Assembly: GCA_020850315.1 (NCBI GenBank)
Contig: JADZEY010000056.1
Coordinates: 1-39,136 of the forward strand
DNA: 39,136 nucleotides
Reading direction: 5' to 3'
From: Armatimonadota bacterium
GTDB lineage: Bacteria > Bacteroidota > Ignavibacteria > OLB7
The notes under the pieces are model-generated. The model saw nothing but the letters and a program-made list of their open reading frames with translations. It was not told the DNA's origin and ran no database searches. Shown piece after piece: positions 8,269-17,514 of the stretch. Position 1 is the stretch's first letter. Every line of letters begins with the position of its first letter. The translations under genes and the position numbers were made by a program.

Positions 8269-9666
8269 CTACCGCATCCCAAGCCGGGGTTTGTTGATGC
8301 CCAGGGTTTTCATCTGTTTGCTGAGGGTGGAGCGGTCAATCCCTAACTCGGCAGCGGCTTTGGTGATGTTCCATTCGTTCCGATCCAGCACCTTCACCAA
8401 CTCCTCCTTTTTGGTTTGTTTGGCCAGCTGCTGCACGTCGCCGTAATCCCGAACAACGGAAAGGTCGTGGCTGCGGGAGGAATCGTTGCGATCCAAGACG
8501 CGGGCCAAATCGGTGTGTTCGATAAGCTCGCCAGGGGTCATCACCGCTGCGGCTTCCGTCAGGCGGCGAAGCTCGCGGACATTCCCCGGCCAGCGCTGCC
8601 GCTCCAGCATATCAATCGCCGAGTCGCTGAAGCGTTTTGGCCCCATGTCGTTTTTCTTGGCAAACCCAGATAGGAAGTGATTGGCAAGCGGGGCAATATC
8701 CTGGCGCCGTTCCCGCAGCGGTGGGATGTGAATCTCGATTCCCCGCAGCCGGTAGAGCAGATCCTCACGGAACACCCGTTCGCTTACCGCCTCCAGCAAA
8801 TCGCGGTTGGTGGCCGAGACTATCCGAACATCAACCTCCTCGGCCTGCACCGAACCAAGCCGGCGAACAGTTTGCGAATCAATCACCCGCAAAAATTTCG
8901 ATTGAAGTTCAATCGGGAATTCGCCGATCTCATCCAGAAACAACGTCCCCTGGTGTGCGGCTTGCACCATGCCGGGCTTCACATCCACAGCCCCGGTGAA
9001 CGCCCCTTTGGTGTGGCCGAACAACTCACTCTCGAACATTGTGGCAGGGATATTTGGCACATCCAACACCACAAACGGCTTGTTCTTGCGGGGGCTCATT
9101 TTGTGAATCGCGCTGGCAAGCAAATCCTTGCCAACCCCGGTTTCCCCTGTTATCAGCACCGAAATCATGGAGCGGGCGCACAGCGCGGCCTCGCCGATAA
9201 TCCGTTGTAGGTCGGGGCTGTTGCCAATGATTCCGTACTGGCTTGCGTCCCCCGCGTGTTCCTTCCCCGCCCGCAACTGATCCACCACGGCGTTGATTGC
9301 CGACAGCAACTCGTTCGCGCCAGAACCTTTGTAGATGTAGTTGGTGGCTCCGGTCTTCATTGCTTGCACCACAAGGTCAATGGAGTTCTCCCCCGTCAGC
9401 ATAATCACCGGAAGTGTGGGGTGGAACCGGACGATCTGCTCCAATGTCTGTATCCCCCCCATCCCCGGCATCCGCATATCAAGCAACACCAACTGGATGG
9501 CGTTGACCTCGGCTCCTAACAGTGTCAATCCTTCCTCACCACTGCGGGCAGAGATGGTGCGGTGCCCCACCCGTTTCAGCAGTTCGCCAACAGCTTCAAG
9601 GAAGTTGGGGTCGTCGTCAATCAGTAAAATGTCGGGCCGGGAAACAGCCTGCGTGTTGTTCATCAT
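8269..9666 (-). CDS. Sigma-54-dependent response regulator (NtrC family)
   Basis: This 465-residue regulator has three domains. The receiver domain (about 11-130) has IDDD at the N-terminus, phospho-acceptor Asp63 (LLDMRMPG) and conserved Lys113. The AAA+ domain has Walker A GETGVGKD (174-181), the sigma-54 contact loop GAFTGA (221-226) and Walker B TLFLDEIG (241-248). A Fis-type helix-turn-helix sits at the C-terminus (NITKAAAELGIDRSTLSKQM). Phosphorylation should drive ATP-dependent opening of sigma-54 promoters. The start is one of two tandem ATGs at 9666 and 9663, with AGAGGAA four and seven bases upstream; longer in-frame extensions look non-coding. No sensor kinase is adjacent. It is divergent from the arginine cluster. 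Confidence 0.93.
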   Translation of the reverse strand: MMNNTQAVSRPDILLIDDDPNFLEAVGELLKRVGHRTISARSGEEGLTLLGAEVNAIQLVLLDMRMPGMGGIQTLEQIVRFHPTLPVIMLTGENSIDLVVQAMKTGATNYIYKGSGANELLSAINAVVDQLRAGKEHAGDASQYGIIGNSPDLQRIIGEAALCARSMISVLITGETGVGKDLLASAIHKMSPRKNKPFVVLDVPNIPATMFESELFGHTKGAFTGAVDVKPGMVQAAHQGTLFLDEIGEFPIELQSKFLRVIDSQTVRRLGSVQAEEVDVRIVSATNRDLLEAVSERVFREDLLYRLRGIEIHIPPLRERRQDIAPLANHFLSGFAKKNDMGPKRFSDSAIDMLERQRWPGNVRELRRLTEAAAVMTPGELIEHTDLARVLDRNDSSRSHDLSVVRDYGDVQQLAKQTKKEELVKVLDRNEWNITKAAAELGIDRSTLSKQMKTLGINKPRLGMR

Positions 9667-9971
9667 TGGGTTCCTCTGCAAAGAAATAATTGGGGCGCAC
9701 ACGTTCGTGCAGTGCAAAATGCAGCCGTTGCAAAAAGCGTGGCCAAAAGTACAAAGTTGGCGGGAATTGCCGCTGGGTGCAGCGGCTTCAGCGATAGCAA
9801 GAATCGTACCGGACAGCACCTCACTTCTGCCTTGCCCCGTTCCCTCCTTCTTCATTCTTGCTTACTCCATCCTGGCCTCCCCTCCACCCACCACATTGTC
9901 GTAAACATTATCGCTTCGTAAAAGCAAAAAAAAATCATTGCATGAATATGCAAATCAATGTATAATTGTGC
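9667..9971. other. Divergent spacer between the regulator and argC
   Basis: This 305-base spacer contains the promoters of the leftward response regulator and of the rightward arginine cluster. The right 35 bases hold the promoter and ARG boxes listed separately. In the rest I see no gene, hairpin or repeat. The base content turns AT-rich near argC, including a run of nine A at 9926-9934. Confidence 0.5.
9938..9966 (+). promoter_or_regulatory. argC promoter, sigma-70-like
   Basis: A TTGCAT box (9938-9943) and a perfect TATAAT (9961-9966) are separated by exactly 17 bases. The A of the argC ATG at 9972 is the sixth base after the -10 box, where transcription normally begins, so the mRNA may be leaderless. 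No Shine-Dalgarno sequence precedes this ATG. The promoter overlaps the ARG-box palindromes. Confidence 0.65.
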
Positions 9972-9982
9972 ATGATTATTCA
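9939..9982. promoter_or_regulatory. ARG boxes (ArgR operators) at the argC promoter
   Basis: Two sequences fit the ARG-box core TGNAT-N4-ATNCA: TGCATGAATATGCA at 9939-9952 and TGCATGATTATTCA at 9969-9982. Their centres are 30 bases apart. A weaker copy, TGTATAATTGTGCA, lies at 9959-9972. The first box overlaps the -35 element, the weak one covers the -10 box, and the third covers the argC start codon. ArgR bound with arginine would block transcription here. ArgR is encoded in the same cluster, so this is probably its feedback loop. The consensus comes from the ArgR/AhrC family; binding itself is inferred. Confidence 0.7.
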
Positions 9983-11006
9983 ATCACCCCAAGTTCGCAT
10001 TGGCATTGCTGGCGCATCCGGCTACTCCGGCAGCCAGTTACTGAGATTGCTGCTGCGGCACACCGGGGTGGCCGTTGGCCCGCTGTTTGCCAATTCCTCC
10101 GTTGGCGCAGCTGTGGCCACGCTTCACCCCGATTTATCTGGCAGGGTTGATGCCACATTTGAACCCTGGGAAATTGAGCAAGCAAGCAGGTGCAGCCTCA
10201 TCTTTCTTGCTCTACCATCCGGCGAAGCCTTGCCGTTGTTGCCTTTGTTGGCTCAACATGGAGTGAAAGTGATTGATCTTGGCGGCGATTTCCGGCTGAA
10301 GAATGCCGCCAACTACCAACAGTTTTATCGGCGGGATCACACAGCACCGGAGTATCTATCCAAAGCGGTCTATGGGTTGCCAGAATGGAACAGGGCCGAG
10401 ATTGCAGCGGCGCAGATAATCGCTAACCCGGGCTGCTATCCAACAAGCATCCTGCTTCCGCTGCTTCCGTTGGTTGCTGCCGGGGTGATTGATTTTGATT
10501 GCATAATTATTCACTCCATGTCGGGAACAACCGGAGCGGGAAGGTCGGCTTCGGCCGAGCTTTCGTTCAGTGAGGTGGCGGGGAACGTGAGGGCGTATCG
10601 GGTGGGGGATCACCAGCATATCCCAGAAATTGAACAAGCATTGCAGCAGGTTGCGGGAAGGGAGGTCACGGTGACGTTCACCCCACACTTGCTTCCGGTG
10701 GAGCGCGGAATACTGACAACCATGACGCTGGCATTGCGCCGCCCGATCACCGCGCCAGAGCTTGGCGAACTCTATCGCCAACACTATTCCAACGAACCGT
10801 TTGTCCGTTGGTCGCCCGATCGCATCCCCGATTTGCGCGGCGTGGTCGGCACAAATTTCATTGACATTGGCTACCGCGTGGACCCACGAACCGGGCGGCT
10901 GACGCTGATGTCGGCGATTGACAACCTGCTGAAAGGTGCTGCCGGACAAGCCGTGCAGAATATGAACATCCAACTTGGTTTTGATGAAACGGAGGGGCTA
11001 CTATGA
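9972..11006 (+). CDS. argC: N-acetyl-gamma-glutamyl-phosphate reductase
   Basis: This 344-residue enzyme reduces N-acetylglutamyl phosphate to the semialdehyde with NADPH, the third step of arginine synthesis. The nucleotide-binding motif GIAGASGYSG (11-20) is at the N-terminus. The catalytic cysteine is C155 in NPGCYPTS, and the conserved histidine is H216 in DHQHIPEI. I chose the ATG at 9972 because the family normally begins only a few residues before the GxxGxSG motif; a TTG at 9966 is the alternative. The start codon lies inside an ARG box and right at the predicted transcription start. The 3' end overlaps argJ by four bases (ATGA). It is the first gene of the arginine cluster. Confidence 0.96.
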   Translation: MIIQSPQVRIGIAGASGYSGSQLLRLLLRHTGVAVGPLFANSSVGAAVATLHPDLSGRVDATFEPWEIEQASRCSLIFLALPSGEALPLLPLLAQHGVKVIDLGGDFRLKNAANYQQFYRRDHTAPEYLSKAVYGLPEWNRAEIAAAQIIANPGCYPTSILLPLLPLVAAGVIDFDCIIIHSMSGTTGAGRSASAELSFSEVAGNVRAYRVGDHQHIPEIEQALQQVAGREVTVTFTPHLLPVERGILTTMTLALRRPITAPELGELYRQHYSNEPFVRWSPDRIPDLRGVVGTNFIDIGYRVDPRTGRLTLMSAIDNLLKGAAGQAVQNMNIQLGFDETEGLL

Positions 11007-12217
11007 AACCAGAAATCGTCCACATTGAAGGGGGGATCACCGCCGCGCCGGGATTCCGTGCCGGTGGCGTGCATTGCGGAATCCGCCGCCGCAAGCTGGA
11101 CCTTGCGTTGCTGGTCAGCGACCATCCCGCAACGGTTGCGGGGGTGTTCACCACCAACAAGGCCCAGGCCGCACCGGTGCTGGCAAACCGCATCCAACTT
11201 CGCCAAACGGAAACGTGCAGGGCCATTGCCGTCAACAGCGGCGTTGCCAACGCTTGCACTGGCGAGCGTGGGCTGGAGGATGCCTGGCGAATGATCCGCC
11301 ACACCGCCGCCGCGTTGGACCTTCCCGAAGATCAAGTTCTGGTATCCAGCACCGGGGTGATTGGCGAGTATCTGCCGATGGAAAAAATCACTGCCGGAAT
11401 CGCCCAGCTTGCGCCGCTGCTTTCCGCCGAAGGCGCGCACGATGCAGCGTTGGCGATTATGACCACCGACACCTGCCCGAAAGAATACGCCGTGCGGGTT
11501 CGCATCGGCGGCGTTCCGGTGACGATTGGGGCAATGGCCAAAGGGTCCGGGATGATTGCGCCGAACATGGCCACCATGCTGGCATTTATCGCCACCGATG
11601 CCGCCGTCACCCAGCCCGCGTTGCAGCTGATGCTGGGGCGCGCCTGCCAACTCTCCTTCAATCGCATCAGCGTGGATGGCGACACCAGCACCAACGATAT
11701 GGCAATCGTGCTGGCCAACGGCCTGGCCAAAAACCCGATAGTGACCGAGGGGACACCGGAGTTCGATGAGCTTGCCGATGCCCTTACCCACGTGATGATT
11801 GTTCTGGCAAAGATGATCGCCCGCGACGGCGAAGGGGCACAAAAATTGATTGAGATCCAGGTGCGCGGCGCGGCAACCGAGGCCGAAGCCGAACAAGCCG
11901 CCCGCGCCGTGGCAAACTCCAACTTGGTGAAAACCGCCATTCACGGGGCCGACGCAAACTGGGGGCGGATACTTGCCGCCGTTGGATACTCCGGGATTGA
12001 GTTCAACCCCGAACAGATCTCTATCTGCTTGAATGGAGTTCCAATCCTTGCCCCCGGCTACCAGATTGTGATTGATGAAGAAAAAGCAAAACGCGCGCTG
12101 GAATGGGAGGAAGTGACGATACTGATTGACCTGTGCCGTGGCGACCACGAAGTCCGGTTTTGGACCTGCGACCTGACGAAGGAGTACGTCCACATCAACG
12201 CCAGCTACCGTTCCTGA
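11003..12217 (+). CDS. argJ: Bifunctional glutamate N-acetyltransferase / ornithine acetyltransferase
   Basis: This 404-residue ArgJ transfers the acetyl group from N-acetylornithine back to glutamate, so the acetyl group is recycled. If bifunctional it can also make N-acetylglutamate from acetyl-CoA. The self-cleavage site is visible as KGSGMIAPNMATML, with the nucleophile Thr191 that becomes the N-terminus of the beta chain. The oxyanion-hole TG is at 117-118 in VSSTGVIGEYLP. Its presence means that argE and argA are not required. It overlaps argC by four bases and argB by one base (TGATG), which indicates translational coupling. Whether it uses acetyl-CoA efficiently cannot be told from sequence. 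Confidence 0.96.
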   Translation: MKPEIVHIEGGITAAPGFRAGGVHCGIRRRKLDLALLVSDHPATVAGVFTTNKAQAAPVLANRIQLRQTETCRAIAVNSGVANACTGERGLEDAWRMIRHTAAALDLPEDQVLVSSTGVIGEYLPMEKITAGIAQLAPLLSAEGAHDAALAIMTTDTCPKEYAVRVRIGGVPVTIGAMAKGSGMIAPNMATMLAFIATDAAVTQPALQLMLGRACQLSFNRISVDGDTSTNDMAIVLANGLAKNPIVTEGTPEFDELADALTHVMIVLAKMIARDGEGAQKLIEIQVRGAATEAEAEQAARAVANSNLVKTAIHGADANWGRILAAVGYSGIEFNPEQISICLNGVPILAPGYQIVIDEEKAKRALEWEEVTILIDLCRGDHEVRFWTCDLTKEYVHINASYRS

Positions 12218-13017
12218 TGAACCACAGCAGCAATGGCGGAAAAGAAATTGTGGTGATTAAACATGGTGGGTCCACCATGAACGATTCCGGCACTGACCAA
12301 ACGCTGGCCCAGATTGCCGAACTGCACAACGCAGGAGCGAAGGTTGTGGTGGTGCATGGCGGCGGCAACCGGATCACCCAACTAAGCAGCGCGTTGGGAA
12401 TCCCCACCCGGTTTGTTGCGGGGCGGCGATTCACCTGCGGGCCGACGCTTGATGCTGCGGTGATGGCCCTTGCTGGTGCGGTGAACAAGGAGCTTGTGGC
12501 GGGATTGCTTCGGGTCGGGGTTTCCGCCGTTGGCTTGTCGGGGGTGGATGGCCGAATCCTGCAAACCGAGCCAGCCGGGCCGGAATTCGGCGCAGTTGGC
12601 AACGTGGCCGAAGTGAACACCGCACCGATTGAGCTTCTTCTGGACGGAGGCTTCCTTCCGGTGCTGGCCCCGATCGGCATCAGCTGCGCCGATGGAGCAA
12701 TCCAGAACATCAATGCCGATTTGGCGGCTTCGGCGGTGGCGGTGGCATTGCGGGCCGATCATCTGCTGTTTGTCACCGATGTCCCCGGTGTCCGCGCCGG
12801 CGGATTGGTGCGCCAACATCTTAGCGTTGCCGAAGCAGCAGCATTGATTGCCAGCAAAGAAATTGAGGGCGGAATGATCCCCAAAGCCGAAGCCGCAATC
12901 CAAGCAGCCACCGCCGGGGTTGCCAACGTGCGAATTATCGGCAACAGCCCTTCGGCACTATCTGAAGGGGTAGCCCGGCAACTGGGAACAGCCTTTGGAA
13001 TGTCGAATGAAGAGTGA
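12217..13017 (+). CDS. argB: Acetylglutamate kinase
   Basis: This 266-residue amino-acid kinase phosphorylates N-acetylglutamate with ATP, the second step of the pathway. Visible motifs are KHGGST (15-20) and VHGGGNRIT (46-54) for phosphate and substrate binding, NINADLAASAVA for the nucleotide site, and EGGMIPKAEAA with the conserved lysine near the C-terminus. The start at 12217 overlaps the argJ stop by one base; a longer in-frame version would lie inside argJ and lacks family similarity. I see no extended N-terminal helix of the kind that makes some arginine-inhibited kinases hexameric, so feedback inhibition is uncertain. The gene is followed by the first heptamer-repeat spacer. Confidence 0.95.
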   Translation: MNHSSNGGKEIVVIKHGGSTMNDSGTDQTLAQIAELHNAGAKVVVVHGGGNRITQLSSALGIPTRFVAGRRFTCGPTLDAAVMALAGAVNKELVAGLLRVGVSAVGLSGVDGRILQTEPAGPEFGAVGNVAEVNTAPIELLLDGGFLPVLAPIGISCADGAIQNINADLAASAVAVALRADHLLFVTDVPGVRAGGLVRQHLSVAEAAALIASKEIEGGMIPKAEAAIQAATAGVANVRIIGNSPSALSEGVARQLGTAFGMSNEE

Positions 13018-13053: not shown

Positions 13054-13133
13054 AATGACCAATGACTAATGACTAATGACCAATTCTCAATCTTTGCAAT
13101 CACCCACTGACAACTGACAACTGACCAATGACC
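13054..13133 (+). repeat. Heptamer repeat ladder ending in the argF start codon
   Basis: Four in-phase 7-mers (AATGACC, AATGACT, AATGACT, AATGACC) span 13054-13081. After a 24-base gap come ACTGACA, ACTGACA, ACTGACC and AATGACC (13106-13133). The final AATGACC contains the ATG of argF at 13128. Related arrays lie before argG and argH. They resemble the short tandemly repeated heptamers known from cyanobacteria. Confidence 0.85.
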
Positions 13134-14075
13134 AAAGATTTCCTCTCCATACTTGACATCACCGGAAGCGAATTGGAAGGGATGTTCTCCCTTGCCGACG
13201 AGCTACAACTCAGCCGCCAGTTCCGCCCGCTTGAGGGGATGACCGCTGCGCTGATCTTCCAGAAACCATCGCTGCGGACGCGAGCCTCGTTCGAAATTGG
13301 CATGGCACAGCTTGGCGGGCAATCGGTGCATTTCACCGACGAAGGGATTGGGCTGGGGGTCCGCGAAACGCCAGCGGATGTTGCCCAGCTTCTTTCCCGC
13401 TATGCCGATCTGATTGTTGCGCGGGTGTTCGGCCACGACCTTCTGGAGCAGATGGCCGCCTATGCCACAATCCCAGTGGTGAACGCCCTTAGCGACCGCT
13501 CGCACCCCTGCCAAATCATCGCCGATATGTACACCATCCGGCAGCATGGATTGCTTACCCCGGGGGTGCGGGTCTGCTACGTGGGCGACGGCAACAACGT
13601 GGCGAACTCCTGGATAGAGATGGCCGCAATCTGGCCAATCCGCCTGACGGTAGCCACCCCGGAAGGCTACGAGCCGGATGCCGAAATTTTGGCAGCGGCC
13701 CAACGCCAAGCCGCCTTCCCAATCGTTCTAAGCCACGACCCTGCCGCCGCCGTCCGCAATGCCGATGTGGTGTATACCGACGTGTGGGCAAGCATGGGCC
13801 AGGAACAAGAAACAGCAATCCGCAAGAAGGCGTTTGCGGGATTTCAGGTCAACCCTGCATTGATGGGGCGGGCATCGGCCGATGCGATTTTTATGCACTG
13901 CCTGCCGGCACACCGTGGCGAAGAAGTTGCCGCCGAAGTCATTGATGGCGCACGCTCGGTTATATTTGACCAAGCCGAAAACCGGCTGCATATGCAGAAG
14001 GCACTGCTGACACGATTGGCGCATCGCGGCCAGGGAACGGAGGCACTGCTGCATGGGCAGTTGGCTCTTCTATGA
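13128..14075 (+). CDS. argF: Ornithine carbamoyltransferase
   Basis: This 315-residue enzyme joins carbamoyl phosphate to ornithine to make citrulline. The carbamoyl-phosphate loop is SLRTR (48-52), followed by HPCQ (126-129). The ornithine-binding DVWASMG loop is at 218-224 and HCLPAHRGEE at 257-266. The SMG loop and the cluster context argue for ornithine rather than acetylornithine or aspartate as substrate. The start codon and the first two residues (Met-Thr) lie in the last unit of a heptamer repeat, with no obvious Shine-Dalgarno. The 3' end overlaps argR by four bases (ATGA). Confidence 0.95.
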   Translation: MTKDFLSILDITGSELEGMFSLADELQLSRQFRPLEGMTAALIFQKPSLRTRASFEIGMAQLGGQSVHFTDEGIGLGVRETPADVAQLLSRYADLIVARVFGHDLLEQMAAYATIPVVNALSDRSHPCQIIADMYTIRQHGLLTPGVRVCYVGDGNNVANSWIEMAAIWPIRLTVATPEGYEPDAEILAAAQRQAAFPIVLSHDPAAAVRNADVVYTDVWASMGQEQETAIRKKAFAGFQVNPALMGRASADAIFMHCLPAHRGEEVAAEVIDGARSVIFDQAENRLHMQKALLTRLAHRGQGTEALLHGQLALL

Positions 14076-14539
14076 TCCTTGATCCATCTGCCATGAACAA
14101 GCAAAGCCGGCACTTCGCCGTCCGCCAAACAATCGCCAACCACGTGGTGGCCAACCAAGATGAACTGCGCGTTTTGTTGGAATCGCAAGGCTACGAAGTC
14201 ACCCAAGCAACCCTCTCGCGCGATTTGAAGGAGCTTGGGGTTTCGCGGGCACACACCCCCGAAGGAACCCGCTACGTGCTTCCGGCCAGCGGCGGCGAAG
14301 AACGGAAAATGGCAACGCTTGTCAGCTACGAAGTAATCTCCATTGAAGCCAACGAAATGCTGGTGGTGATCCGCACGCTGCCCGGGCGCGCCGCCGGCGT
14401 TGCCGACATCATTGACAGCCAGGGCCACCCAGATATTCTTGGAACCGTCGCCGGCGACAACACCATCTTCATCACCCCGCGCAGCACCCGCAACACTGCC
14501 GCGCTGCTGCGCGAGCTGCAGAAGCAGATTATGGGGTAG
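14072..14539 (+). CDS. argR: Arginine repressor
   Basis: This 155-residue ArgR/AhrC-family protein has a winged-helix DNA-binding domain at about 8-75, with the recognition segment TQATLSRDLKELGVSRA (44-60). The C-terminal arginine-binding hexamerisation domain follows at about 82-153, with RTLPGRAAGVADIID and GTVAGDNTIFI (124-134). With arginine bound it should repress the ARG boxes at argC. The start at 14072 overlaps the argF stop; MNKQSRH at 14093 is another plausible start and fits the family length better. Placing the repressor inside the operon gives negative autoregulation. Confidence 0.95.
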   Translation: MILDPSAMNKQSRHFAVRQTIANHVVANQDELRVLLESQGYEVTQATLSRDLKELGVSRAHTPEGTRYVLPASGGEERKMATLVSYEVISIEANEMLVVIRTLPGRAAGVADIIDSQGHPDILGTVAGDNTIFITPRSTRNTAALLRELQKQIMG

Positions 14540-14547
14540 TCGGTGGG

Positions 14548-14644
14548 CAGTAGTCAGTGGTCAGTTGCAAAGAGGTTTTTTTGTCCATGGTCATTGGTTC
14601 ATGGTCATTAGTTCATGGTCATTAGTCCTTGGTCAATAGTCATT
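14548..14644 (-). repeat. Heptamer repeat array, inverted, upstream of argG
   Basis: On the plus strand eight in-phase 7-mers run from 14589 to 14644 (GGTCATT, GGTTCAT, GGTCATT, AGTTCAT, GGTCATT, AGTCCTT, GGTCAAT, AGTCATT). They are preceded by GTCAGTG/GTCAGTT units and a CAAAGAGGTTTTT link at 14548-14588. Read on the minus strand these are the same AATGACC-type units as before argF and argH. The 14548-14596 part matches the reverse complement of 16037-16079, so argG is flanked by inverted copies. Confidence 0.85.
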
Positions 14645-14674
14645 AGTGGGGGAAGAATGGCTACTTCCCTTTGT

Positions 14675-14702
14675 ACCAATCACCAATTACCTTTTCCCGA
14701 TA
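14675..14702 (+). repeat. Short heptamer ladder ending at the argG start
   Basis: Four consecutive 7-mers, ACCAATC, ACCAATT, ACCTTTT and CCCGATA, end with the A of the argG ATG at 14702. The CCCGAT end is shared with the ladder before atpC (30581-30608). Seven-base periodicity is weaker here than in the AATGACC arrays. Confidence 0.5.
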
Positions 14703-15907
14703 TGCCAAACAAAATTGCTCTTGCTTATTCCGGCGGGCTTGATACTTCAGTAATTGCCCGCTGGTTGGTGGAGAACTACGGTGCCGAAGTCATCACCGTC
14801 ACCGGAAACTTGGGTCAGCAAAAAGAGCTGGTGAACATTGAGGAGAAAGCGATGCGCTCCGGCGCGTCCGCCGCGTTTATCCTTGATCTTGCCGATGAGT
14901 TCGTGAGCGACTACGTGTTCCCAGCACTGAAAGCCGGAGCCTTGTACGAAGGGCTATACCCGATGGCCACCGCGCTGGGCCGCCCACTGCTGGCAAAAGC
15001 ACTGGTGGAGATCGCGATTCGCGAAGGGTGCGATGCCGTGGCCCACGGCTGCACCGGAAAGGGAAATGACCAAGTGCGGTTTGAAGCATCAGCCGCCGCG
15101 CTGGCCCCGCAACTGAAGGTGATTGCTCCGCTGCGCGATTGGGAATTCGGCTCACGCGAGGAAGAAATTGCCTACTGCGAACAACACGGAATCCCAGTGG
15201 CCGCCACCCGCGAAAACCCCTACTCCATTGATGAAAATCTGTGGGGAACCAGCATCGAGTGCGGCGTTCTGGAGGACCCCAAAGTTGCCCCACCTGCCGA
15301 TGCCTTCCAGCGGACCTGCTCGCCACAGCAAGCCCCCGACCAAGCAACCGCCGTGACGATTGAGTTCAGCAACGGAACCCCGGTGGCACTGGATGGCGTG
15401 CCGATGGATGGCGTTCGGCTGATCCACGCGCTGAACGAGCTTGGCGGAGCCAACGGCGTTGGGCGGATTGACATGGTGGAAAATCGCCTTGTGGGGATCA
15501 AATCGCGTGAGATTTACGAGGCTCCAGCGGCGGTAATTCTGCACCGCGCCCACGAGGAACTGGAGCGGCTGACGCTGGATCGGGAGACGGCTCACCACAA
15601 ACGAAAAATGGCTGCCGACTACGCCAACCTGATCTACAACGGTCAGTGGTTCACCCCGCTCCGCCAAGCGTTCGATGCGTTCATCGAAGCAACACAAGCG
15701 GTGGTAAATGGATGGGTGAGGTTGTCGCTGTACAAAGGGACCATCACCACCGAAGCGCGGTGGTCGCCGAACTCGCTGTACGACCCAGAGCTTGCAACCT
15801 ACACCAGTGCCGACACCTTCGACCACAAGGCCAGCGCAGGATTCATCAAAGTCTTCTCGCTGCCAATGCGGACGTGGCATCAGGTGAATGAGGGGAAGGG
15901 GCAGTAG
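14702..15907 (+). CDS. argG: Argininosuccinate synthase
   Basis: This 401-residue enzyme condenses citrulline and aspartate using ATP. The P-loop-like SGGLDTS motif is at residues 10-16, with [13 protein letters not shown] for citrulline and aspartate binding and YSIDENLWG further on. I chose the ATG at 14702 because the family starts a few residues before AYSGGLDTS. An in-frame ATG at 14657 would add 15 residues encoded by repeat sequence. The gene sits between two inverted copies of the heptamer-repeat spacer, unlike the tightly overlapping argC-J-B and argF-R genes. It may therefore be transcribed separately or have been inserted with its flanks. Confidence 0.95.
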
Positions 15908-16008: not shown

Positions 16009-16134
16009 TAATGACCAATGACCAAGGACTAATGACCATGAACAAAAACCTCTTTGCAACTGACCACTGACTACTGACTACTGACCAAAAACCAAACTTC
16101 CCCCCTCCTTCCAACTGACCACTGACCAATGACC
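16009..16134 (+). repeat. Heptamer repeat array ending in the argH start codon
   Basis: Units TAATGAC, CAATGAC, CAAGGAC, TAATGAC and CATGAAC (16009-16043) come first. ACTGACC, ACTGACT, ACTGACT, ACTGACC (16059-16086) follow, and after a C-rich link ACTGACC, ACTGACC, AATGACC (16114-16134). The last unit contains the argH ATG at 16129. The stretch AATGACCAATTCTCAA is shared with 13075-13090 in the argF spacer, showing that the two spacers are homologous. Confidence 0.85.
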
Positions 16135-17514
16135 AATTCTCAACCATGGGGCGGACGATTCCGCGAAGGACTTGCCGAGGTCGCTTTCCGTTTTTCTGCT
16201 TCGCTGGATGTTGACGGGCGTTTGTTCCACGAGGACATCGCCGGCAGCATTGCCCACGCCCAGATGCTGGCCGATTGCGGAATCATCTCCGCCGAAGATG
16301 GTGCGGCAATTACACAAGGGTTGATCGCGCTTCGCGCCGATATTGAAGCTGGGCGTGTGGAGTTCCCCGCCGATGCCGAGGATATCCACATGGCTGTGGA
16401 GAAATTGTTGATTGAGAGAATCGGGCCCGCCGGGGGGCGGCTTCACACGGCGCGCAGCCGCAACGATCAAGTTGCGCTGGACATCAGGCTGTACCTGCGC
16501 CGCCGTGCCGATGAGATTGTGGAAAGCATTCGCCAACTGCAACGCGCCTTGCTTCGCCAGGCCGAACTTCACGCCGAAACAGTGATGCCCGGATACACGC
16601 ATTTGCAGCGTGCGCAACCGGTGCTGTTGGGTCATCATCTTTTGGCATATCTGCAGATGCTGGAGCGCGACCGCACACGCCTGTTGGATTGCCAACGCCG
16701 CGCCGATGCTTCCCCGCTTGGCGCGGCGGCCCTTGCCGGGACCTCCTTCCCGATTGATCGCCACGCCGTTGCTGCCAATCTTGGCTTTGCTGGGATTGTG
16801 GAAAACAGCATGGATGCCGTCAGCGCGCGCGACCACGTGATGGAGTTTGTGGCCGCTTGCAGCATCGGCATGTGCAACCTTAGCCGCCTTGCTGAAGAGG
16901 TGATACTGTGGGCCACAACGGAGTTCCGTTTCATTGAAATTGGCGATGCCTTCAGCACCGGAAGCAGCATCATGCCGCAAAAGAAAAACCCGGACATGGC
17001 GGAGTTGGTGCGGGGGAAAACAGGGCAAGCCTACGGCGCGCTGATCTCACTGCTCACCACCATGAAGGGCCTTCCCCTTTCCTACAATCGTGATATGCAG
17101 GAGGACAAGCGTCCGATGTTCCAAGCCGCCGACACGTGGGATGACTCGCTAACCATCATGGCCGGGATGCTTGACAACTCCACCTTCAACGCCAGCGTGA
17201 TGCAGGCGGCAGCAGCGGGCGGGTTCAGCACCGCCACGGAAATTGCCGACTACCTTGTCCGCTGCGGCACTCCCTTCCGCGATGCGCATGGCGTTGCCGG
17301 GGCTATTGTTGGCTACTGCGTTCAGCGGGGCCTGACGCTTGCCGAGCTTGATCTTCCAACGCTCCAGACGTTTTCCCCAGCCTTCGCCAGCGATATTTTC
17401 GATTACCTTGATCCCAACCTGGCCGTTCAGCAGCGCCGTTCCGCCGGGGGCGCGTCGCCGCAGGAGGTGGCGCGGCAGGTGGCATGGTGGAAAGGGGAGT
17501 TGGGAAGCCAATAG
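16129..17514 (+). CDS. argH: Argininosuccinate lyase
   Basis: This 461-residue member of the fumarase/aspartase superfamily splits argininosuccinate into arginine and fumarate, the last step of the pathway. The signature loop GSSIMPQKKNPD is at residues 278-289 with the catalytic Ser near 279-280. HTARSRNDQVALD (106-118) and the TH pair at 157-158 (GYTHLQRAQP) complete the active site. The first residues MTNSQ are encoded by the end of a heptamer array whose sequence also occurs, untranslated, before argF; the family-like part starts at PWGGRF. The gene closes the arginine cluster and has no evident terminator just downstream. Confidence 0.95.
   Translation: MTNSQPWGGRFREGLAEVAFRFSASLDVDGRLFHEDIAGSIAHAQMLADCGIISAEDGAAITQGLIALRADIEAGRVEFPADAEDIHMAVEKLLIERIGPAGGRLHTARSRNDQVALDIRLYLRRRADEIVESIRQLQRALLRQAELHAETVMPGYTHLQRAQPVLLGHHLLAYLQMLERDRTRLLDCQRRADASPLGAAALAGTSFPIDRHAVAANLGFAGIVENSMDAVSARDHVMEFVAACSIGMCNLSRLAEEVILWATTEFRFIEIGDAFSTGSSIMPQKKNPDMAELVRGKTGQAYGALISLLTTMKGLPLSYNRDMQEDKRPMFQAADTWDDSLTIMAGMLDNSTFNASVMQAAAAGGFSTATEIADYLVRCGTPFRDAHGVAGAIVGYCVQRGLTLAELDLPTLQTFSPAFASDIFDYLDPNLAVQQRRSAGGASPQEVARQVAWWKGELGSQ

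Follow-up and report, generated by a model that had tools for sequence, protein, structure and literature searches.

Paired ARG boxes that appear to double as the argC promoter, with a predicted leaderless argC transcript

The DNA immediately upstream of argC raises the question of whether one short stretch can serve as repressor operator, promoter and translation start at once. Control of argC by ArgR, through ARG boxes lying over the promoter, is textbook knowledge. Here, argC heads an argCJBF-argR-argGH cluster (Table 1) in a window of 39,136 nucleotides, that is, the whole stretch of DNA analysed, which is one entire contig (G000:C56) of a 4.24-Mb draft genome. A preliminary description of this DNA had proposed ArgR control of argC, from a promoter covered by palindromes, and an mRNA that begins at the start codon itself. 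The nearest genome belongs to the same genus (Chlorobiota MAG JAEUSP01, ArgC 89% identical) and is referred to below as the sister genome.

Table 1. Positions of the argC promoter elements, ARG boxes and cluster genes in the window
Feature	Position	Strand	Basis
ARG box 1, ATTGCATGAATATGCAAA	9937..9954	+	20.6 bits; contains the -35 element
-35-like element TTGCAT	9938..9943	+	Sequence; most relatives have TTGCAT at the same place in box 1
ARG box 2, AATGTATAATTGTGCATG	9957..9974	+	15.8 bits; contains the -10 element; core ends on the A of ATG; 20 bp from box 1, centre to centre
-10 element TATAAT	9961..9966	+	Sequence; box 2 copies favour T where the -10 begins
ARG box 3, TGTGCATGATTATTCAAT	9967..9984	+	17.7 bits; across the start codon
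Predicted transcription start	9972..9972 (9972-9974 possible)	+	Falls on the A of the argC start codon, a purine preceded by a pyrimidine; 5-nt gap to the -10; no other usable start codon
argC, N-acetyl-gamma-glutamyl-phosphate reductase	9972..11006	+	Pfam PF01118, PF22698, PF02774
Intragenic ARG box, ATTGCATAATTATTCACT	10498..10515	+	21.4 bits, best in the window; over argC codons Cys-Ile-Ile-Ile-His
argJ	11003..12217	+	Pfam PF01960
argB open frame	12133..13017	+	Pfam PF00696; kinase domain from residue 39
argF-type carbamoyltransferase	13128..14075	+	Pfam PF00185, PF02729
argR, arginine repressor, inside the cluster	14072..14539	+	Pfam PF01316, PF02863; best solved relative 1f9n, E 1.1e-22
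argG	14615..15907	+	Pfam PF00764, PF20979
argH	16129..17514	+	Pfam PF00206, PF14698

A symmetric 18-bp motif model, built from 144 sites found at argC in genomes of the class outside this genus, allows the palindromes to be placed on a common scale. Scanning of the window yields exactly four top sites, listed in Table 1, with the next-best site reaching only 4.6 bits. Genome statistics refer to about 1.51 Mb of the draft genome, taken in stretches; in the 1.47 Mb scanned on other contigs, three sites reach 15 bits, the best of them 17.7, and none attains 18 bits. By a simpler pattern count over the whole genome, 4 of the 11 near-consensus cores are the four boxes of the window. All of them are 18-bp palindromes of the TGnAT-N4-ATnCA kind bound by ArgR/AhrC-type repressors, and boxes 1 and 2 lie on one helix face, 2 bp apart (20 bp centre to centre). 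The palindromes noted earlier at the -35, the -10 and the start codon are consequently real and well outside chance expectation, but the one at the -10 had been taken for a weak copy, whereas it is the canonical second ARG box, and the strongest box of all, inside argC, had been overlooked.

The spacing of the pair is strikingly constant. With spacings of 19-21 bp permitted, the centres of boxes 1 and 2 are exactly 20 bp apart in every one of the 66 loci that carry a pair, namely 64 in relatives plus those of this genome and the sister genome. The cluster also encodes a plausible cognate repressor, since its ArgR combines the DNA-binding and arginine-binding domains, resembles AhrC (1f9n) and has a conserved DNA-reading helix (QATLSRDLKEL). 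Taken together, the conserved 20-bp pair, the presence of argR within the cluster and the lack of anything comparable elsewhere in the sampled genome strongly support the proposed control of argC by ArgR, as judged from sequence.

Several features of the cluster are recorded here in their own right. The arginine-binding motif of ArgR reads GDNT, versus GDDT in AhrC and in Bacillus and Mycobacterium repressors. We considered this Asp-to-Asn change as a special trait and rejected the idea, as 12 ArgR proteins in a class-wide sample of 20 have the same Asn; it may shift the effector preference or may be neutral. The true start of argB probably lies further in than the start of its open frame. The spacers before argF, argG and argH (13090-13128, 14575-14615 and 16090-16129) contain short repeated words, CTGACAACTGACAACTGACCA, TGGTCATTGGTTCATGGTCATTAGT and CTGACCACTGACCA, that run up to and into the start codon.

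The promoter itself can be read directly as TTGCAT, a 17-nt spacer, TATAAT, TGTGC and the ATG at 9972-9974, in agreement with the arrangement described before. A generic consensus promoter scan of 9400-10400 lists no promoter, and TTGCAT matches the TTGACA consensus at only 3 of 6 bases, so that the evidence for a promoter has to come from relatives rather than from consensus strength. With the boxes spaced in this way, 17 bp separate the TTG in box 1 from the TATAAT-like stretch in box 2, and TTG followed at this distance by TATAAT or TATATT is found in most of the 64 relatives with a box pair. The two boxes differ at their fifth position, which is C in 61 of 66 copies of box 1 versus T, the first base of the -10, in 53 of 66 copies of box 2 (Fisher p 3e-19); box 2 is likewise asymmetric against its own right, mirror half over the 66 loci (p 1e-9), both p-values being optimistic because the sequences are related. 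An operator alone would be indifferent to C or T at this position, which argues for a real promoter and for selection beyond operator function.

Two further observations concern this intergenic region. In L004 and L008, which belong to the same family and another genus, the promoter apparently lies 20 bp further downstream, with box 2 holding the -35 and a long leader preceding the gene, which weighs against the reading preferred here. Between argC and the divergent gene for a sigma-54-type response regulator, a run of 30 bases (9747-9776) is identical in the sister genome, while the remaining intergenic DNA is less conserved.

Where transcription would begin follows from the position of the -10. 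By convention the last base of a -10 element is -7; as TATAAT ends at 9966, +1 should canonically fall on T9973. The preliminary description had set the start exactly on the A of the ATG, which overstates the case by one base; A9972 is nevertheless the adjacent purine and lies within the usual range. Among purines, A9972 or G9974 would be the probable starts, and a transcript beginning at G9974 would be without the AUG. From the first base of TATAAT to the ATG the distance is 11 nt, inside the range of about 10-14 nt expected for leaderless genes. No Shine-Dalgarno sequence precedes the ATG at 9972, and no other usable start codon is found before the GASGYSG loop, neither downstream nor upstream with the exception of a TTG at 9966, which overlaps the -10 and whose use would need an upstream transcript start. 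These features indicate that the argC message very probably begins at its first codon as a leaderless transcript.

Genome-wide counts point in the same direction, giving a signal that is small and is based on first ATGs and not on proven starts: hexamers resembling a -10 are enriched at -14 to -11 (31 vs about 14, p 1e-4), and 13 copies of the Bacteroidota-type TAnnTTTG lie 4-6 nt ahead of an ATG, vs 4.4 expected (p 6e-4). Leaderless starts thus seem to occur in a minority of the genes of this genome. The most favoured gap between -10 and ATG is 6 nt, and since the 5-nt gap of argC is one shorter, some argC transcripts may start at 9973-9974 without the AUG. Separately, long open frames whose ATG lies 4-6 nt after a TAnnTTTG are seen, for example, at L253:8653 (-), L126:8044 (-), L256:3242 (+) and L227:11250 (-), an apparent leaderless class with a Bacteroidota-type -10.

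Relatives with a recognisable -10 fall into two groups according to the position of the start codon. In 16 loci, those of the genus included, it follows the -10 after 5-9 nt, and in the others after 12-79 nt; gaps of 10-18 nt are nearly absent, with two cases, both at 12 nt. The gap is exactly 5 nt in L001, L002, L005, L170, L173 and L175, of which the last four are genomes of another family beyond the genus, and 6-9 nt in ten more; L199 was added to the comparison by eye. All 16 short-gap loci start with ATG, a result partly built in, as the label demanded ATG; the sole near non-ATG start is one TTG with a better start behind it. Most of the leadered relatives carry Shine-Dalgarno-like bases. 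On the ArgC tree, the leaderless and leadered states need at least 6 changes, of which strongly supported branches force only one. The proposal of a leaderless argC mRNA, as a prediction, is supported by the 5-nt geometry, the lack of another start codon or of a Shine-Dalgarno sequence, the recurrence in other families and the weak genome-wide signal.

A leadered message could still arise if the promoter were located further upstream, with the box pair and its TATAAT acting purely as operator and argC being translated from an AT-rich leader that has no Shine-Dalgarno sequence. Bacteroidota frequently lack such sequences (PMC3155529, PMC6847099), and the sister genome shares a further conserved stretch upstream, at 9903-9923. 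The promoter-type asymmetry of box 2 and the invariant 17-bp spacing across families count against this scenario, and no other promoter-like site is listed in 9400-10400. ArgR is moreover reported to act by overlap with promoters and to be an inefficient roadblock (PMC6640053), and repression from an operator located only downstream would then be weak. We consider an upstream promoter improbable.

Box 3 poses a separate problem. It shares a half-site with box 2, their centres being 10 bp apart, and it could lengthen the row of bound ArgR across the start codon or displace it in that direction. Both genomes of the genus carry box 3; at the same position in other families it is missing, even in those with the 5-nt geometry. 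Conservation, suggested earlier as a check for the palindromes, accordingly holds for the pair of boxes 1 and 2 across 64 relatives and fails for box 3 beyond the two genomes of the genus; in these two, the sequence supports an operator that extends into argC. Box 3 might be a by-product of the shared palindromic TGCA half-site and the codons ATG ATT ATT CA, with no binding of its own, leaving boxes 1 and 2 as the entire operator. Its restriction to the genus fits this notion, as does its overlap with box 2, which makes the usual simultaneous occupancy of both impossible, and its identity in the sister genome is unremarkable, given that runs of at least 7 identical codons occur 8 times in argC. 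On the other hand, box 3 outscores box 2 in a genome where only three sites in 1.47 Mb reach 15 bits, and its spacings of 10 and 30 bp keep it on the same helix face. We rate the by-product reading at slightly under even odds. The sister genome had been considered as proof of selection on box 3 and was dropped, equally long runs of identity occurring seven more times in argC.

The intragenic box is centred about 534 bp past the ATG and 541 bp from box 2. Most likely it is an auxiliary operator that would act via cooperative binding or looping, by analogy with argCO2 of B. subtilis, and together with box 3 it may constitute a candidate extended or looping operator like argCO1/argCO2. That three Ile codons merely happen to spell an ARG box appears rather unlikely, even though no counterpart was found at the same place of argC in other genera and retention in the sister genome could reflect common descent. 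Chance would have to account for the best site in the window, when about 0.002 sites of even 15 bits are expected in argC and 1.47 Mb contain none of at least 18; the core is identical in the sister genome (19.7 bits there), and an operator inside argC has a precedent in argCO2 (PMC9245794). A distant argC-type gene of another family (L026) also has a 21.4-bit ARG box in its coding sequence, 83 bases past the argC alignment start, with none found upstream.

Considering all of the above, we assign a probability of about 0.76 to the reading that this is an ArgR-controlled promoter of the argCJBF-argR-argGH cluster, with paired ARG boxes doubling as promoter and a leaderless argC mRNA. The left half of box 1 would hold the -35 (TTG...) and that of box 2 the beginning of the -10. 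RNA polymerase would start on or beside the A of the argC ATG, and the ribosome would read the resulting mRNA from its 5' AUG with no Shine-Dalgarno sequence. With plentiful arginine, an ArgR hexamer would presumably occupy boxes 1 and 2 and exclude the polymerase, with box 3 possibly carrying the ArgR array on across the start codon. Provided that the cluster is transcribed as a unit, as assumed from gene order, the repressor would also limit its own synthesis. Such promoter occlusion fits the reported behaviour of ArgR, which represses by promoter overlap and is an inefficient roadblock (PMC6640053).

More tentatively, a broader history can be outlined, which we regard as possible and hold with distinctly less confidence. 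The paired ARG box would be the argC promoter in a fixed register across the class, argC would have switched several times between leaderless and Shine-Dalgarno-led states, and in this genus box 3 would have carried the operator into the coding sequence and a strong operator would have been added at a distance, within the gene, repression then combining occlusion with looping. Relatives that keep the box spacing while the leader varies in length form a natural series, suited to asking under which conditions a leader becomes dispensable and what difference, if any, an operator across the start codon makes.

Comparison with known systems places these features in context. E. coli ArgR operators similarly consist of paired 18-bp ARG boxes that cover an arginine gene's promoter, where the cognate ArgR keeps the polymerase off (PMC6640053). 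They have 3 bp between boxes (21 bp centre to centre), compared with 2 bp here (20 bp); at the present locus, unlike in E. coli, the -35 and -10 lie in the two boxes at a fixed register, and the operator reaches the start codon. The dual arrangement of B. subtilis AhrC, with argCO1 over the -35 and -10 of argC and argCO2 inside the gene (PMC9245794), has its parallel in the second ARG box within argC. The B. subtilis promoter has a 16-bp spacer and an extended -10, in contrast to the 17-nt spacer here, and differs further from the present locus in the distance of the intragenic box from the ATG and in the third box that straddles the start codon.

For the predicted leaderless start, the closest likeness is the acuR-acuI-dddL operon of Rhodobacter sphaeroides, in which an operator overlaps the promoter and the transcript starts exactly at the AUG of the first gene, as determined by 5' RACE (PMC3017554). 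There, the repressor is the TetR-family AcuR, the inverted repeat is unrelated and the first gene is the regulator. The geometry also resembles that of TA-led leaderless genes, with TANNNT about 12 bp before the start codon and no Shine-Dalgarno sequence (Zheng et al. 2011, PMC3160421). Of the 37 Bacteroidetes/Chlorobi genomes in that survey, only 1 had leaderless genes, unlike the picture predicted here, of apparent leaderless genes in a Chlorobiota class, one of them at an operator-bound promoter, in a phylum for which hardly any have been reported. The open-licence literature yielded no description of an argC that is both leaderless and controlled by ArgR. The main claim, that ArgR controls argC, is ordinary and its control is of a known kind; the leaderless start and the strong repressor site inside argC make the locus an uncommon variant, and one 48-bp stretch acting as repressor operator, promoter and translation start would be a compact case of such regulation.
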